Source: Selenomonadaceae bacterium (GTDB taxonomy: Bacteria > Bacillota > Negativicutes > Selenomonadales > Selenomonadaceae). From it: a DNA stretch of 64,000 bases. The position numbers and the translations under genes were made by a program. Positions 37,119-44,340 of the stretch are shown here, in pieces. The first letter of the stretch is position 1. Each line of letters starts with the position of its first letter. The DNA is taken from the NCBI GenBank assembly GCA_017477125.1, contig JAFUXN010000083.1, forward strand, positions 1 through 64,000, given 5' to 3'. The notes beneath the pieces are model-generated. The model saw only the letters and a program-made list of their open reading frames with translations. It was not told where the DNA came from and searched no databases.

Positions 37119-37340
37119 TTTTTACATCACCTCAATTAGATTCGACAATCTTATTAATCATAGCGCGCTCGAAAAAAATTGCAAGCCCTTGAACGTAAAA
37201 ATTTTGGGCGTCGGCAGGACGGCTTCGATCGTCGACGAAATTTCGAGCGAGTTGAGTTCAGCTATTCGGTCAACAAATACGTCTAATAGGTACACGATTT
37301 GAGAGGCGGATTGTGCTAAAATCATGGTGAGGTGAGAGAG

Positions 37341-37718
37341 GTGGACAATCGAGAGAATTACATCAGAGAAGTGCAGTGCATCGGATTGAGGATCGCATAC
37401 TTCCGCAAGCTGAGGAGAATGACGCAAGCGGACTTGGCGCAGGCGGTGCACATCAACAAAAATTATCTGTCGCACATCGAGAGCGGGTCGGCGAGCAAAG
37501 TGATCTCACTGCCGTTGCTGATCATGATCTCGAAGGCGCTCGACGTGGATTTGCCGATCTTGGTCGACATTGACGACCTTGAGGGTTCCAAGCGCGAGAT
37601 ACAGAAGCAGTTCAACGACATTAGGGAGCTGTTTGAGGAGATGAAGCAATTCAATGATGAGCTCGACGCGATGATGACGAATATGACGTCACTTGAGAAG
37701 TCGGCGGCGGAGCAATGA
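37341..37718 (+). CDS. XRE-family regulator of the Hsp70-like operon
   Basis: The 125-aa product has an N-terminal Cro/CI-type helix-turn-helix (GLRIAYFRKLRRMTQADLAQ followed by HINKNYLSHIESG) and a C-terminal acidic helix (KQFNDIRELFEEMKQFNDEL) likely for dimerisation. I place the start at GTG 37341 after AGGTGA; GTG 37332 is an in-frame alternative. It is the first of four closely spaced genes on the plus strand and probably regulates them. A TAAAAT box lies about 30 bp upstream without a clear -35. Confidence 0.83.
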   Translation: MDNRENYIREVQCIGLRIAYFRKLRRMTQADLAQAVHINKNYLSHIESGSASKVISLPLLIMISKALDVDLPILVDIDDLEGSKREIQKQFNDIRELFEEMKQFNDELDAMMTNMTSLEKSAAEQ

Positions 37719-37730
37719 CGGGAGGAAAGT

Positions 37731-38381
37731 ATGGACGAGCATGAGACATTGACGGCGCGTCGCCTGAACAAGGCGCGGGAGGAAGTACAAGAATTGCGCG
37801 GGCGATTGAAAGGCATGCTTTCGAAGATCGATCAACGGTCGAAGAAACTTATGTCGGAGATCGAAGGGCTCCGCGCTGAGAATCGTCGGCTCGAGCAGGA
37901 GAAGAGCAGTCTGCAGGGAACGCTCAAGCGCGTGCGGGAGCAATCGGCTCAACGGTTCGAACGCGGTTGGGAATTATTTCAACGGTATCAAGAGGTGGGC
38001 GCGCATGCTCGGCAGATATTGCAGACGGGCGTGTTTGCTCACGAAGATGATTTCACGTCGTTCATCTGCGGCGGTGCTCAACCGAAATCGCTCGCAACGT
38101 TGTGGGACGTGACAAACGAATGCATGAGGAGCGGGCGGCGTGAGGACGCTGAAATTCTGTGGGACATCTTTGAGTACTGTGTTGAGCTGGTGAACTCGAC
38201 GAAGGAGAAAGACATTTATGCGATCCTGCAAGTGGATGAGGGCGATCAATTTGATTCGGACTTCCAAACGGAGGGACCGCGCAGTCGGGCGCAAGGCAAA
38301 GTGATCGAGGTGTACCTTCGGGGGTATCGGAACAACTACAACGGTGACGTGATCAGGAAGAGCGTCGTGCGCGTGGGTTGA
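37731..38381 (+). CDS. Coiled-coil protein preceding the Hsp70-like gene
   Basis: A 216-aa protein whose first 75 residues form a charged coiled coil (LNKAREEVQELRGRLKGM, MSEIEGLRAENRRLEQEK), followed by a compact domain of about 130 residues (FTSFICGGAQPKSLATLWDV, EDAEILWDIFEYCVELVN) that I do not recognise. The layout, with a coiled coil in front of a small domain and an Hsp70-like gene next door, recalls GrpE-type exchange factors, but no GrpE motif is visible. GGAGG precedes the ATG; 12 bp separate it from the regulator and 13 bp from the Hsp70-like gene. Confidence 0.7.
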   Translation: MDEHETLTARRLNKAREEVQELRGRLKGMLSKIDQRSKKLMSEIEGLRAENRRLEQEKSSLQGTLKRVREQSAQRFERGWELFQRYQEVGAHARQILQTGVFAHEDDFTSFICGGAQPKSLATLWDVTNECMRSGRREDAEILWDIFEYCVELVNSTKEKDIYAILQVDEGDQFDSDFQTEGPRSRAQGKVIEVYLRGYRNNYNGDVIRKSVVRVG

Positions 38382-38394
38382 GGGAGGATGATTG

Positions 38395-41385
38395 ATGATG
38401 ATTGAGTTGCCGAAGAACAGACCGTCGAGGCTGAGCGCGGTGCGGGTGAACAAAATACAGTTTAACCACATCTTTACGGACTCGGCGGTGGCGATGGGCG
38501 AGAAGATCGCTCGTGACCTTGCGGCGTTGAAGGACGACATTGCGCCCGTCGCCGACAAGCGCTTCGTCCTGTTTAAGAACAAAAAGGTTTGGTTCGACAG
38601 AGAAGTCTCGGGGCTCTTCCCCCGCATGGAGGACAGAGACCTGCCCGTCTTTCAGTGTAATTCTTCCTTTGACAATCGAGCGATCAAGAATTTTAAATGC
38701 TTTGAGCGTGAGGGATTTAAATTTTCCTTTTTAACTTTTCAGGAGGTCGAAAAGACTTTTGGAAAAGGCAAAGGAAATCCCTATCTGGACGGTTCGGGCA
38801 ATTTAACCTTCTGCAAAAACGTAAGCCACAGAAGTAATATCATCGTAGGAATAAAAGAAGGGTCTGATTGTAGCTACTGGTATGATGCCAGCAATAACTG
38901 CCGTCGGGGAAATGAATGCGGAAACTGCCCGGGGAACTGTACTTACACAGCGACGTTGGTGCCGATCTATCGGTTGAGGGGGAAGAACGCGGCAGCGATG
39001 AGCTACTTCGATTCCTTCTTCTCTTGGATCAAGCTCGGACTGATGCCCGAAGGTTTGAAAGCCAGACAGGAGAAATTTTTCAGCGATCTCATCAACGATT
39101 ACCCGACGCTCGAGGAGTATATCACCGTCGAGGACGAGACGATCACTTTCGACAGCGCACACTTCTCCGCCGACGTCCTCAGTGGCGCCTTCACCGAAAC
39201 CGTCTTCGGCTACGACTTCGACATCAAGGGAACTCTCAACGCCGTGCTCGACGGCTCCAAACAATACTCCGGCTCGGTCGGCGCGCTCAAAACCGAACTG
39301 CTCAATTGCGATCACAAGCGCGCCAACATCCAGCCCTACGACGAACGCATCTTGACCGACATCAACAGAGGGCACTGGGATTTGTTTGAGCCCGCTCGCG
39401 AAGGCGACATCGAAATCGATCTCCCTCAAGATGAAATGCTGGTCGCGCGCCCGCCGCAGATGGACGTCCGCTTGCATGGACTGTGCGCGATCGATTTCGG
39501 TACCAAGTCGACGATCGTGGTGTGTCGAGACGGCGACGCTCGCATGTTGAGGATCGGCAAGGGCGATTACTCCAAAGCTCCTACCATGAAGGATTTCGAG
39601 AACCCGACCGCCATCGAGCTCCGCGATATCAACTCGTTCCTCGACGCCTACCGTGCGCGCGTCGGTCGTCCGTTCACCGAATGGGATCAGGTCACCGTCA
39701 GCCACCAAGCCGCCGAGGCGATCTTCAAAGCCGACGTCGGCAGTTCCGTTTATAATTCGGTGTTCAACGAGCTCAAGCAGTGGGCGAAGGACGAGCAGAG
39801 TTATCCGATCCTCAAAGACCTGTCGGGAGTCACGCAGGACATCAAGCCCTACCTCGAGACGCAATCGATAGACGGCGGCGATTTCGATCCGATCGAGCTC
39901 TACGCATATTATCTGGGTCTCTACATCAACAATATGCACCACAAAATTTATCTCGATTACATCTTGTCATACCCCGTCAACTATCGGAAGGACGTGCGCG
40001 AGCACATCAGAGCGAGTTTCGAGCGCGGGTTGAGGAAATCGTTGCCGCCCGCGTTGCAAGCCGACGAGCAGATGATGAAACACTTCAGAGTGTACCTTGG
40101 AGCGAGCGAGCCGGCGGCGTATGCGATCAGTGCGCTTGAATGTTTCGGGCTCGAGCCCAAACGGATCGGCGATAAGATTGCGTACGGCGTATTCGACTTC
40201 GGCGGAGGCACGACCGATTTCGATTTCGGCATCGAGTACATTCCCGAGAACAAGCGTCGAAACTTCGTCATTGATCAGTTCGGGTTCAACGGTGATATAT
40301 TGCTCGGCGGCGAGAACATTCTCGAGCTGCTTGCCTATGAAGTCTATAAAGACAACATCGACATCATGCGCAAAAATAAAATACCGTTCGCGTTGCCGCC
40401 GGGCTGTGAGCTGTTCGCGGGAGCAGAGACATTGGTCAGTCGAACGAAAGATGCGTCGTCGCACATGAACAATCGGATATTGGCGGAGAAGCTCCGTCCG
40501 ATCTGGGAGCACACCGACGAGATCAAAAGTTTCGGCGAGGACGCCATGCCCGTCACGCTGTTCTCGAGGGCTAAGAACAACGACAGTTACACGCTCGGTG
40601 TCAAGCTCAACGTTGATGTCAAGAGGTTGGAGAAGCGGATTGAAGAGCGCATACGTGTGGGCGTCGAAAACTTTTTCCAATCGATGTACAGCGCATTCGA
40701 GGGCAAGGCGGTCTATCCGATCCACATCTTCTTGGCGGGCAACTCGTGCCGCTCGGCAGTGGTCAAGACGCTGTTCGACGAGTTCATCAAGCAGGAGGAG
40801 GGCAAGCTGGCGGAGAATATCAAAGCCGACAGCGGTCAGGACAAGGACACGTCGGGGACATTCATCTTGCACCAACCGTTGGGCATGGGTGACGAGGCTT
40901 CGGCGCTCGATCCGTCGATGCTCGATCGTCAACGGACGGGCAAGACGGGCGTGGCGTTCGGATTGTTGCGCTGTCGAAAAGGCGGCAAGGACATCAAGAT
41001 CAACAACAAGAACGTGGATCGAGACGACGAGGTGAAGTTCCAATACTTCTTGGGCGACGCGGGCGCGGACGGGCAGACGTTCACGGTGCGTATCGGGCGA
41101 GAGGTGAAGTATGGAGAATGGGCGTACTTCACGAGCGCCGACGAAGCTGACTTTGAAATCTACTACACGACGACGCCGCGGGCATTGAAGAATAATTTGC
41201 CGATCGAGCAGGTGTCAATGGTGCGTTGCGTGCTCGACGATGAGGACGTGTCGGAAGATGATGATGCGGGCGTGTACGTGAGGAAGGTCGACCCGAACAC
41301 GATCGAATATGCGGCAGGCTCTGAAGATGATTTCAAGGGCGAGTTCAAGGGGAAAATTTATCGGCAGAAATTATCGCAGGTGTGA
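38395..41385 (+). CDS. Large Hsp70/actin-fold ATPase with a Cys-rich N-terminal module
   Basis: A 996-aa protein whose C-terminal two thirds carries an Hsp70-type nucleotide-binding fold: phosphate-1 loop AIDFGTKST (365-373), phosphate-2 loop DFGGGTTDF (601-609) and the adenosine motif FLAGNS (779-784). A typical Hsp70 substrate-binding domain is not evident. The first 360 residues are unfamiliar and include a cysteine cluster C159, C169, C175, C178 and C182, a possible metal site. The DNA from about 38640 to 38950, which encodes this cluster, is clearly more AT-rich than both flanks. GGGAGG precedes ATG 38395. It is the core of a four-gene operon. It resembles large Hsp70-like proteins of uncharacterised stress or conflict systems; function unknown. 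Confidence 0.8.
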   Translation: MMIELPKNRPSRLSAVRVNKIQFNHIFTDSAVAMGEKIARDLAALKDDIAPVADKRFVLFKNKKVWFDREVSGLFPRMEDRDLPVFQCNSSFDNRAIKNFKCFEREGFKFSFLTFQEVEKTFGKGKGNPYLDGSGNLTFCKNVSHRSNIIVGIKEGSDCSYWYDASNNCRRGNECGNCPGNCTYTATLVPIYRLRGKNAAAMSYFDSFFSWIKLGLMPEGLKARQEKFFSDLINDYPTLEEYITVEDETITFDSAHFSADVLSGAFTETVFGYDFDIKGTLNAVLDGSKQYSGSVGALKTELLNCDHKRANIQPYDERILTDINRGHWDLFEPAREGDIEIDLPQDEMLVARPPQMDVRLHGLCAIDFGTKSTIVVCRDGDARMLRIGKGDYSKAPTMKDFENPTAIELRDINSFLDAYRARVGRPFTEWDQVTVSHQAAEAIFKADVGSSVYNSVFNELKQWAKDEQSYPILKDLSGVTQDIKPYLETQSIDGGDFDPIELYAYYLGLYINNMHHKIYLDYILSYPVNYRKDVREHIRASFERGLRKSLPPALQADEQMMKHFRVYLGASEPAAYAISALECFGLEPKRIGDKIAYGVFDFGGGTTDFDFGIEYIPENKRRNFVIDQFGFNGDILLGGENILELLAYEVYKDNIDIMRKNKIPFALPPGCELFAGAETLVSRTKDASSHMNNRILAEKLRPIWEHTDEIKSFGEDAMPVTLFSRAKNNDSYTLGVKLNVDVKRLEKRIEERIRVGVENFFQSMYSAFEGKAVYPIHIFLAGNSCRSAVVKTLFDEFIKQEEGKLAENIKADSGQDKDTSGTFILHQPLGMGDEASALDPSMLDRQRTGKTGVAFGLLRCRKGGKDIKINNKNVDRDDEVKFQYFLGDAGADGQTFTVRIGREVKYGEWAYFTSADEADFEIYYTTTPRALKNNLPIEQVSMVRCVLDDEDVSEDDDAGVYVRKVDPNTIEYAAGSEDDFKGEFKGKIYRQKLSQV

Positions 41386-41386
41386 C

Positions 41387-41923
41387 ATGAAAAAATATTT
41401 GATAGAGATCGAAGGCGGGCGCATTTGGACGAACGAATATGACGGCGCTCGATTCAAACTGATGAGACCGTACGGCGAGAAGAGCCAGGCGTGCGAGGAA
41501 TATGTTGACTACTGCGATTGGTTTCAAGAAAAATTTGGGCGCGAGTCGGACGTGTGCTTGCTCTGCTCCGATGAGGCGGCTCGCGATGTTTATGAGAAGC
41601 TCGTTGAGATGTTGGGAGGCGGGCGCTCAACGTGGACGGACGATGAGGTTGCGAAGTTCCTTGGTTGGCATCGAGACAAGATCGAACCGCCGCCCGTCGA
41701 GCCTGCCGTTGATGATCGGCTCGAAGATCAGATCGATAATGGGATCGACGATCCGATCGATGACGCTCCGATCAATGAACCGAGCGATGAGCCGAGCGAT
41801 GAGCCGATCGATGAGGAGCGCAAAGATGAGCGGCAACTGCCTCGGGCGAATGCTTATGATCTGCAACGGCTCATAAGTCAGAGGTTGGACGGGCAGTGTG
41901 CCAAGGTCGCCTCTCGAAAATAA
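41387..41923 (+). CDS. Acidic protein ending the Hsp70-like operon
   Basis: A 178-aa protein starting one base after the Hsp70-like stop codon. The first 95 residues form a possible small domain with four cysteines (SQACEEYVDYCDWF, SDVCLLCSDEAA); then comes a long acidic repeat of Asp, Glu, Pro and Ile (residues about 105-150, DDPIDDAPINEPSDEPSDEP), and a short basic tail. I do not recognise it. The tight coupling to the Hsp70-like gene suggests a partner or client-binding adaptor. A terminator follows after 5 bp. Confidence 0.7.
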   Translation: MKKYLIEIEGGRIWTNEYDGARFKLMRPYGEKSQACEEYVDYCDWFQEKFGRESDVCLLCSDEAARDVYEKLVEMLGGGRSTWTDDEVAKFLGWHRDKIEPPPVEPAVDDRLEDQIDNGIDDPIDDAPINEPSDEPSDEPIDEERKDERQLPRANAYDLQRLISQRLDGQCAKVASRK

Positions 41924-41928
41924 TAAAA

Positions 41929-41957
41929 GGGACTCCGCGCGGAGCCCCAATTTTTTT
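41929..41957 (+). terminator. Bidirectional terminator between the Hsp70 operon and mtaD
   Basis: GGGACTCCGCGCGGAGCCCC forms a near-perfect stem, followed by AATTTTTTT on the plus strand and by TTTTATT on the minus strand. The core is a copy of TCCGCGCGGA. Confidence 0.85.
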
Positions 41958-41969
41958 GCCGCCGTCGGC

Positions 41970-43247
41970 TCAATTGCCGGTCAAGCGTTTGAAGCAGGCA
42001 TTGAACTCGGCGATGATCTTTTCCTCGTCGAGCGTCTTCAATTGACGTCCCTCCATCAGCACTTGACCGTCGACGATCACCGTGTCCGCCGACGACGATT
42101 GAGCCGAGTACGCCAACAGCGAGATCGGATTGTAATTCGGTTGCCAATCCGCGCCGCTCATGTCCCACAACACGATATCTGCCTTGAGCCCCTCGCGCAG
42201 CTCGCCCACGTCCTTGAGCCCGATCGCCTTCGCACTGTTGAGCGTGCCGAGTTTGAGCGTCTCGAGCGCTGGTATCGACAACGGATCCATCGTCGACACC
42301 TTGCTCAACAACGTCGCCAATCTGATCTCCTCAAGCATGTCGAGATTGTTGTTGCTCGATGCGCCGTCGGTGCCCACGCCTACCACCAGCCCCCGCTCGA
42401 TCAATTTACGGATCGGACAGATGCCGCTCGAGATTTTCATGTTCGAGCCCGGGTTGTGTGCCACGCGTACCTTCTTTTCGACCATCAGATCGATCTCCGC
42501 ATCGCTCAAGTGCACGCAATGAGCCGCCAACATTCCCAGATCGAGCAGCCCCGTCTCGTTGACCACCTCGAACGGGCGCTTGCCATGCTCCTTGAGGCAA
42601 CCGTTGATCTCGTCGAGCGTCTCATTCATGTGCATGTGGATTTCCGCGCCGCACTTCGACGCCGTATCCGCGATCTTCTTCAGATAATCGAGCGGGCAGG
42701 TGTAGACGGCATGCGGTCCGAACATCACCGTCACTCGTCCGTTCGCCTTCCCATGCCATTCGTTGAACAGCGCCGTCCCCGCGTCCAATCTCCTGTCGCC
42801 GTCGAAGATGCCTATCAGCCCTTGACACAGCACGCCGCGCATGCCGCTCTCGTCAACGACCTTCGCAACCTCCTCCATGCATGGTCCGTACATGTCGGCG
42901 AACGCCGTCGTCCCCGACTTGATCATCTCGACCGCCGCCAACGCCGCGCCCCAATAAATGTCGGCGCGCTCCATCTTCGCCTCGATTGGCCAGATATGAT
43001 TGTTGAGCCAATCCATCAACGCAAGGTCGTCGGCATAACTCCTCAACAACGTCATCGACGCATGGGTGTGCGCATTGACCAGTCCCGGCGTCGCAAATTT
43101 GTTCCGACCGTCAATGATAGTCGCGTCGGCGCTCTCGCCAACCGATCCGATCGTTGCGATCCGATCGTCGACGATCAAAATGTCGGCAACATCAACCGAG
43201 CCTTCCGCGCAGAGCACCTTCGCGCCCTTGATCAAAATCTTGCTCAT
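41970..43247 (-). CDS. mtaD: 5-methylthioadenosine/S-adenosylhomocysteine deaminase
   Basis: A 425-aa amidohydrolase that deaminates methylthioadenosine or S-adenosylhomocysteine to the inosine forms. The metal site is visible in PGLVNAHTHASM, the central H-M-H-M-N-E (EIHMHMNETL), LAAHCVHLSD and GVGTDGASSNNNLD, which matches the family closely. ATG 43247 with GGAG upstream is the start; the longer frame extends into the repeat array and is not coding. Close by are ahcY (44345) and speE (45675), all acting on SAM products, so substrate recycling is the likely role. Confidence 0.92.
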   Translation of the reverse strand: MSKILIKGAKVLCAEGSVDVADILIVDDRIATIGSVGESADATIIDGRNKFATPGLVNAHTHASMTLLRSYADDLALMDWLNNHIWPIEAKMERADIYWGAALAAVEMIKSGTTAFADMYGPCMEEVAKVVDESGMRGVLCQGLIGIFDGDRRLDAGTALFNEWHGKANGRVTVMFGPHAVYTCPLDYLKKIADTASKCGAEIHMHMNETLDEINGCLKEHGKRPFEVVNETGLLDLGMLAAHCVHLSDAEIDLMVEKKVRVAHNPGSNMKISSGICPIRKLIERGLVVGVGTDGASSNNNLDMLEEIRLATLLSKVSTMDPLSIPALETLKLGTLNSAKAIGLKDVGELREGLKADIVLWDMSGADWQPNYNPISLLAYSAQSSSADTVIVDGQVLMEGRQLKTLDEEKIIAEFNACFKRLTGN

Positions 43248-43292: not shown

Positions 43293-44340
43293 CGGGCGCA
43301 CCGCCCGCTCAGTAGGCGGACGCGCCCTCTTCCTCACTGATGCCCTTAAAGTATCGGTCGAGCTCAAAAAATTTATCGATGGTTGAAGAAGAAGGGCGAG
43401 CCGCCCCATTAGGGAGGCGGGCGCCCCTTTTTCCTCCGTCACCCCAACCGTTGAGACGCCGACCACGATCAGGGCGAGCCGCCCCCATCGGGAGGCGGGC
43501 GCCCGATTTTTTCACCCGTCACCCCAACCGTTGAGCCGTCGACCATGATCAGGACGAGCCGCCCCCATCGGGAGGCGGGCGCCCTTTTTTTCATCGTTGC
43601 CCCAACCATTGTGCCGCTGACCATGAGCAGGGCGAGCCGCCCCATTCGGGAGGCGGGCGCCCATTTTTTACACCGTTACCCCAACCGTTGAGCCTCCGCT
43701 TATGATCAGGGCGAGCCGCCCCATGCCGAGGCGGGCGCCCTAAATTTCACCGTCGCCCCAACCGTTGAGCCTCCGCTTATGATCAGGGCGAGCCGCCCCA
43801 TTCGAGAGGCGGGCGCCCGATTTTTTCACCGTCGCCCCAACCGTTGTGCCGCTGATCATGATCAGGGCGAGCCGCCCCCATCGAGAGGCGGGCGCCCTTT
43901 TTCCACTGTCGCCCCAACCGTTGAGCCGCTGGTCATGAGCAGGGCGAGCCGCCCCCATCGAGAGGCGGGCGCCCTTTTTTACACCGTTACCCCAACCGTT
44001 GAGCTTCTGATCATGATCAGGGCGAGCCGCCCCATTATGGAGGCGGTCGCCCGATTTTTCACCGTCGCCCCAATCGTTGAGCTTCTGATCATGGGCAAGG
44101 CGAGCCGCCCCCGTCGAGAGGCGGTCGCCCATTTTTTCATCGTCGCCCCAATCGTTGAGCTATAGACCATGGGCAGGGCGAGCCGCCTCGAGCGAGAGGC
44201 GGGCGCCCCTTTTTCCACCGTCGCCCCAACTGTTGAGCTTCTGATCATAATCAGGGCGCGCCGCCCCATCGGTAGGCGGGCGCCCTTTTTTACATCGTCG
44301 CCCCAACCGTTGCGCTTTGATTTTTTCCACCGTCGCCCTA
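43293..44340. repeat. Thirteen-copy palindromic repeat array downstream of ahcY
   Basis: The 1.1-kb gap between mtaD and ahcY is almost wholly a tandem array of about 78-bp units. Each has the core GGGCGAGCCGCCCC, 5-7 bases, GGAGGCGGGCGCCC, then a T run and the linker CACCGTCGCCCCAACCGTTG AGC with a variable TGATCATGATCAG tail. Cores lie near 43393, 43471, 43550, 43628, 43707, 43784, 43864, 43941, 44020, 44098, 44177 and 44252, plus a diverged first copy at 43293. Cores and linkers are both conserved, so it is not a CRISPR array. It ends 4 bp from the ahcY stop codon. Open frames inside are repeat translations. Confidence 0.92.

Follow-up and report, generated by a model that had tools for sequence, protein, structure and literature searches.

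The locus lies on the forward strand of a 64,000-nt stretch of DNA (the whole of which is referred to as the window), which comes from the 2.9-Mb assembly of a rumen Selenomonadaceae genome. Four ORFs follow one another on the same strand with nearly no spacing (37341-41923), the gaps between the genes for an XRE-type regulator, a coiled-coil protein, an ATPase of 996 aa and an acidic protein, D, being 12, 13 and 1 bases, respectively; D thus starts two bases after the ATPase stop, and the tight four-gene set of the original prediction is borne out. The features are as follows:

37341..37718, + strand: XRE-type regulator, 125 aa, with HTH and short coiled-coil tail (Pfam HTH_3, 4.9e-11; PADLOC HTH_VI, 2e-13)
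37731..38381, + strand: predicted GrpE-like nucleotide-exchange factor, 216 aa, with N-terminal coiled coil and C-terminal GrpE-type domain (hhalign, Pfam)
38280..38378, + strand: putative GrpE signature, EGDQFDSDFQ...QGKVIEVYLRGYRNNYNGDVIRKSVVRV (by alignment to GrpE)
38395..41385, + strand: Hsp70/actin-fold ATPase, 996 aa from the second ATG (hhalign to Hsp70; PDB profile search)
38419..39186, + strand: N-terminal module of ~250 aa, residues 9-264, a candidate client-recognition domain (own HMM, E 2e-75)
39475..40944, + strand: Hsp70-type nucleotide-binding domain, residues ~361-850, with motifs IDFGTKST, FDFGGGTTD and FLAGNS
40945..41382, + strand: C-terminal domain, residues 851-996, conserved in the family and not alignable to the DnaK substrate-binding domain
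41387..41923, + strand: acidic protein D, 178 aa, with N-terminal domain, acidic low-complexity linker and C-terminal helix with QCxxV (alignment)
41929..41957, no strand: hairpin terminator (hairpin 41929-41948), common to the operon and the convergent gene 41970-43247

The coding by this operon is real, as the pN/pS ratios indicate (ATPase, ~0.29; coiled-coil gene, ~0.42; D, ~0.6), and all four frames are intact. The record of a relative, Quinella sp. 1Q5, carries the same gene, and its sequence also turns up in a genome belonging to the genus of the window. On one side, the operon is flanked by oadG/oadB and, on the other, by a convergent gene of the amidohydrolase type (gene names assigned by eye). 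The terminator had been credited to the operon alone; because T-runs flank the hairpin on both sides, it serves both of the convergent genes. Further downstream, a tandem array of ~12 copies of a 78-bp repeat (43393-44312) separates the two neighbouring genes; each copy contains a terminator-like arrangement, with T-runs after a GC-rich inverted repeat. A clean empty site upstream of oadG was considered and rejected: the flank is different in every relative, and the borders of an island cannot, therefore, be drawn. No toxin, immunity, WYL, mobility or defence gene is present beside the window operon, and Rfam gives no match to a structured RNA at it. A phage origin was also tried and rejected, as phage records gave no match, and viral contigs two weak ones of 25% only.

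The assignment of the first gene to the XRE regulators is supported by its match to HTH_3. The gene is peculiar to this locus: none of its kind was found next to homologous cassettes, a WYL regulator being present in some of these. A palindrome at 37235-37246, ACGAAATTTCGA, was evaluated as a candidate operator for the XRE protein and discarded, being only at chance level.

The ATPase and its GrpE-like partner

That the third gene encodes an Hsp70/actin-fold ATPase, as originally proposed, is confirmed by profile-profile comparison (hhalign): the family profile matches the Hsp70 alignment with Prob 98.2 and E 6e-14 over residues ~364-799, i.e. across the whole nucleotide-binding domain (NBD). 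Moreover, a profile of 19 relatives finds DnaK structures in the PDB (E 0.001) via the phosphate-2 motif. No Pfam family matches the 996-aa protein, which is absent from the PF00012 matches of the genome; NCBIfam returns DnaK/HscA at E 0.05-0.2 only, and PADLOC has no model for it. When the C-terminal domain is compared with the DnaK substrate-binding domain using sequence profiles, the result is a Prob of 0.3; a C-terminus of this type was accordingly rejected, in agreement with the earlier statement that a normal substrate-binding domain is lacking. The same holds for DnaJ: the HPD motif of a J-domain is absent from all cassette proteins, and a search of the neighbours for a J-domain also found none.

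The N-terminal region had been described as a 360-aa Cys-rich segment. However, Cys140, Cys159, Cys169 and Cys175 are each present in just one of nine close orthologues, and are, therefore, largely private to the window copy; a Cys-rich metal-binding N-terminus was ruled out on these grounds. Cys305 is widely kept (16/19). The real feature of this region is the module of ~250 aa, which evolves faster than the NBD (47-55% identity, as against 74-76%). It is single in most long members, tandem in two (L014 and L015) and not detected by its HMM in the solo paralogues of ~800 aa; a derivation from Hsp70 or GrpE was considered and dropped, as it gave no signal. The two ATPases with tandem modules have 1234 and 1282 aa (L014 8001-11705 and L015 5187-9035, respectively), and in both loci an unrelated extra gene lies between the GrpE-like gene and the ATPase. 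The window genome itself contains a second, very divergent ATPase of the family beside a 390-aa protein (L047 9085-11949, contig 32), and, on contig 65 (L004), a further Hsp70 adjoins a protein of ~362-376 aa with a faint GrpE match.

The coiled-coil protein is, at the level of profile comparison, a divergent GrpE. A profile from which the coil had been omitted matches the GrpE alignment with Prob 94.5 and a score of 51.7 (hhalign; Prob 94-96 overall), set against a maximum of 21.6 in 100 column shuffles and a value of 12.2 for the reversed profile. The consensus of the last 35 residues of the family, GDxFDSxxH...SRxQGxVxxVxLxGYRNxxxGKIIxKSxVxV, resembles GxxFDPNxHxA...GTIxxELQKGYxxxGRVIRPSMVKV of GrpE, to which the signature in the window protein was also aligned. 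GrpE is, moreover, the sole Pfam family matched by several members, albeit each time below the cut-off (12.0-13.1 bits for the window protein and 18.9 for the best congener, the cut-off being 25.8), and PF01025 weakly matches the homologous genes of relatives. Coiled-coil matches cover residues ~8-90, and PADLOC yields generic coiled-coil matches only. The assignment rests on profile-profile comparison, because the whole-PDB search with the full profile was swamped by myosin-type coils, and that with the coil-free profile gave nothing at E below 0.3. The earlier view that the operon has no recognisable GrpE was, consequently, wrong, and the operon has a predicted nucleotide-exchange factor of its own.

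The two genes are closely linked. Among 44 distinct GrpE-like genes in the loci retrieved, 39 directly precede an ATPase gene and 41 have one within two genes downstream, two of the three exceptions running off their contigs; this count is partly biased, as the GrpE-like profile was built from genes beside ATPases. For this reason, 300 genomes of the class were searched reciprocally using only the GrpE-like profile. Matches were obtained in 28 genomes, representing 12 genera, and 12 of the 13 informative new loci carry the ATPase (broken in one), a result that reduces the bias without removing it. There are also ATPases without a GrpE-like gene (the solo type of ~800 aa; L048, L049, L051 and L090). 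At L048 (4993-5832), a pure coiled-coil protein without a GrpE domain sits where the GrpE-like gene would be.

The ATPase was found in 6 of 398 sampled genomes of the phylum; it is patchy among relatives (26/60) and common in the window's genus, with several copies per genome. It extends over several genera of the family, three other Negativicutes families and one further family within the phylum; in other phyla, the pair is carried by two plasmids, namely, pYH12207-1 of Acinetobacter piscicola and a Helicobacter plasmid from a cat. Broken ATPase genes occur in two relatives (L019 and L176). The assemblies are mostly draft MAGs of ~60-100% completeness, and gene calls outside annotated records were made with a simple custom caller.

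The six-gene cassette and its neighbourhoods

In many loci, the pair opens a longer cassette with the order GrpE-like gene, ATPase (in one or two copies), HerA-like gene, c12, small coiled protein and D. The HerA-like ATPase (~1065 aa) carries an insert rich in Ser/Thr/Asn/Gln and matches the CedD, HerA and PADLOC mad8 models, and c12 (~300 aa) has an N-terminus that is moderately hydrophobic and rich in Gly/Ala/Ser. D, for which PADLOC has no model, is represented by ten distinct genes: the nine from elsewhere all follow c12, eight of them, in the loci that reach far enough, visibly in the order ATPase-HerA-c12-small, and the window D is the only copy directly behind the ATPase. The HerA-like, c12 and small-protein genes are absent between ATPase and D in the window, and a search for HerA in the window genome gave no match at E 1e-20. 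The ATPase tree places the window as sister (100/99) to a set of ten rows, of which two are HerA-linked; HerA-linked rows are also found outside this clade, and the HerA label requires five changes over the tree. At least five other members of the clade persist as GrpE-ATPase without HerA. On the simplest reading of these patterns, the window and several relatives would have lost the middle genes, and the window alone would have kept D.

The exact set of four genes was seen nowhere else, the XRE gene being restricted to this locus and every D from elsewhere being preceded by genes missing from the window. The four genes, which had been taken as the unit, appear to be a reduced form of the six-gene cassette. 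In one relative (G006), a HerA-c12 pair without an Hsp70 lies just 3' of oadB, the gene that flanks the other side of the window operon (L130).

The genes around the relatives include types associated with conflict. A second branch of the pair, the VgrG branch, precedes an AHH nuclease, an Imm11 immunity gene, a VgrG-like protein and further Hsp70s, the AHH nuclease and Imm11 being directly behind the ATPase. Most of the nuclease-linked copies are of this branch; the window belongs to the HerA branch. Loci of the VgrG branch comprise L056-L059, L064, L071-L074, L087, L088 and L092; the cluster also holds a protein of ~975-1040 aa with a weak SrfB match, and the contractile sheath PF04984 was found in none of nine genomes with this branch. 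Genes for a WHH nuclease and SUKH immunity come after the pair on the Helicobacter plasmid, and its companions on the Acinetobacter plasmid are a WYL regulator, HerA, HEPN, dynamin and a recombinase. All six of the WYL-type genes detected by profile among the ~970 genes examined lie no more than six genes from the pair, and one is split in two frames.

HerA relatives without the pair occur in E. coli with an LHH nuclease, SUKH immunity and dynamins, and in Exiguobacterium with an annotated HNH nuclease and an SMI1/KNR4 gene. A HerA relative in Photobacterium adjoins DUF2357 and Csm6 genes. On the E. coli plasmid pTW10590_133 (L117 4490-12889), two dynamin-family genes, a hypothetical gene, the HerA-like ATPase, the LHH nuclease and SUKH stand in a row, a possible HerA-linked toxin locus.

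It is because WYL regulators, nuclease-immunity pairs, HEPN, dynamins and plasmids accompany the relatives that a role in conflict is favoured. The notion of a conflict or sensing system built on an Hsp70 engine is in keeping with these neighbours (WYL, AHH-Imm11, WHH-SUKH, HEPN, dynamin, HerA and plasmids), although the four-gene unit in which it was framed does not stand. The four genes together match no characterized system in Pfam, NCBIfam or PADLOC, so that the kind of match named beforehand as refuting the original prediction did not turn up.

Proposed function and alternatives

Our preferred reading, to which we would give a probability of roughly 0.55, is that the operon encodes a dedicated motor, composed of a GrpE-like and an Hsp70-like protein, that operates with D under the control of the XRE protein, and that it is a reduced version of a six-gene conflict cassette. 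By association with the neighbourhoods of its relatives, the pair probably acts in conflict as a client-specific remodelling motor. The N-terminal module would bind one specific client, be it a toxin, an effector or an invader component; ATP binding and hydrolysis would change the conformation of this client, and the GrpE-like protein would reset the ATPase through ADP release, without a J-protein. In complete cassettes, the HerA-like motor and hydrophobic c12 may receive the client or hand it over, probably at a membrane. For the window operon, the XRE protein is probably a repressor that restricts expression, and D would act as the remaining client or adaptor. Weighing against this reading are the lack of toxin, immunity, WYL and mobility genes beside the window copy, a GrpE similarity below the Pfam cut-off in each single sequence, the ATPases without a GrpE-like gene and the predominance of the VgrG branch among nuclease-linked copies. 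A bolder version is altogether more tentative: the complete cassette may represent a class of conflict machine not described so far, with a private, J-protein-free GrpE-Hsp70 pair that drives or resets a HerA-type motor and a protein active at membranes, so as to deliver or neutralize a specific client, the window being the minimal version with chaperone motor and D under XRE control.

The alternative that fares best, albeit still an unlikely one, is an anti-phage or anti-plasmid sensor, whereby the N-terminal module would recognize an invader protein, the Hsp70 cycle would amplify the signal, HerA and c12 (or D) would serve as effector, and XRE or WYL proteins would silence the system. The rapid evolution of the module is consistent with this, as are the WYL regulators, HEPN and plasmid carriage among relatives, the Photobacterium HerA relative beside DUF2357 and Csm6, and the matches of the HerA-like protein to the mad8 and HerA models. 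However, PADLOC has no model for the ATPase or D and sees only a coiled coil in the GrpE-like protein, the window copy has no defence genes alongside, and the nuclease and immunity pairs indicate toxin systems operating between bacteria.

Purifying selection, the several copies per genome in the window's genus and a solo ~800-aa type that has no evident conflict neighbours would all suit a specialized housekeeping chaperone pair serving a native client of that genus; we regard this as improbable, given the patchy presence among relatives, the plasmid homologues in other phyla, the repeated gain or loss of partner genes and the conflict-type neighbours. There is a similarly small chance that the window operon, deprived of HerA, c12 and the small protein, is a decaying remnant that no longer works: the missing middle genes, the genome without a HerA match and the broken ATPases of two relatives point that way, but the intact frames, the low pN/pS and the clade members that persist without HerA argue against it. 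Least credible is a distant SrfABC-type virulence operon (SrfA, ~1000-aa SrfB and SrfC, which form a complex; PMC6950479), as membership of SrfB, suggested by an operon with a protein of similar size and by a dynamin GTPase in some relatives, was dropped when PF07520 failed to match the window ATPase, touching weakly other proteins of the VgrG clusters only.

The preferred reading, a dedicated motor derived from a conflict cassette, has partial precedents. With DnaK-GrpE, the operon shares an Hsp70 NBD and a GrpE-type exchange factor in adjacent genes, but it has no DnaJ and no recognisable substrate-binding domain, it has an extra N-terminal module, and its relatives are associated with HerA, VgrG-like or toxin genes instead of heat-shock genes. 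Hsp70 and GrpE genes have been recruited to the GAP1-N2 GTPase-centric conflict systems (Kaur et al. 2020, PMC7159879), and to that extent an Hsp70 with GrpE in a conflict system is common to both; here, though, the partners are HerA, c12 and D, or VgrG and nuclease-immunity pairs, and no GAP1-N2 or DnaJ-fused protein was recognized by searches that were not specific for the name GAP1-N2. The HerA-like ring ATPase of the full cassette is shared with HerA-based defence loci (anti-phage HerA models, mad8 of MADS), from which the cassette differs in the Ser/Thr/Asn/Gln-rich insert and the upstream GrpE-Hsp70 pair, and the window in having no HerA. In polymorphic toxin systems, finally, the relatives find a parallel for their AHH, WHH and LHH nucleases with Imm11 or SUKH immunity, whereas the window is without a toxin pair; the main text of Zhang et al. 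2012 on these systems (PMC3482391) mentions no chaperone. The literature searched, which did not extend to most subscription journals, yielded no description of GrpE-Hsp70 together with HerA, c12 and D. Pairs of Hsp70 and GrpE are thus known from other conflict systems, and it is their combination with HerA, c12 and D that is apparently new.

As general chaperones, Hsp70 machines usually serve many clients. The identification of a GrpE gives what had been a vague coiled-coil operon a precise biochemical hypothesis, and the cassette is directly testable, being compact and having plasmid-borne relatives in bacteria that can be cultured. Overall, we conclude that this is probably a mobile system of six genes used in conflicts with rivals or invading DNA, of which the window appears to hold a cut-down copy. 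If so, bacterial conflict systems would have adopted the Hsp70 cycle as a dedicated motor, in the form of a private Hsp70, with a GrpE of its own, that has repeatedly been coupled to HerA motors, VgrG-like spikes and nuclease-immunity pairs, sometimes on plasmids.
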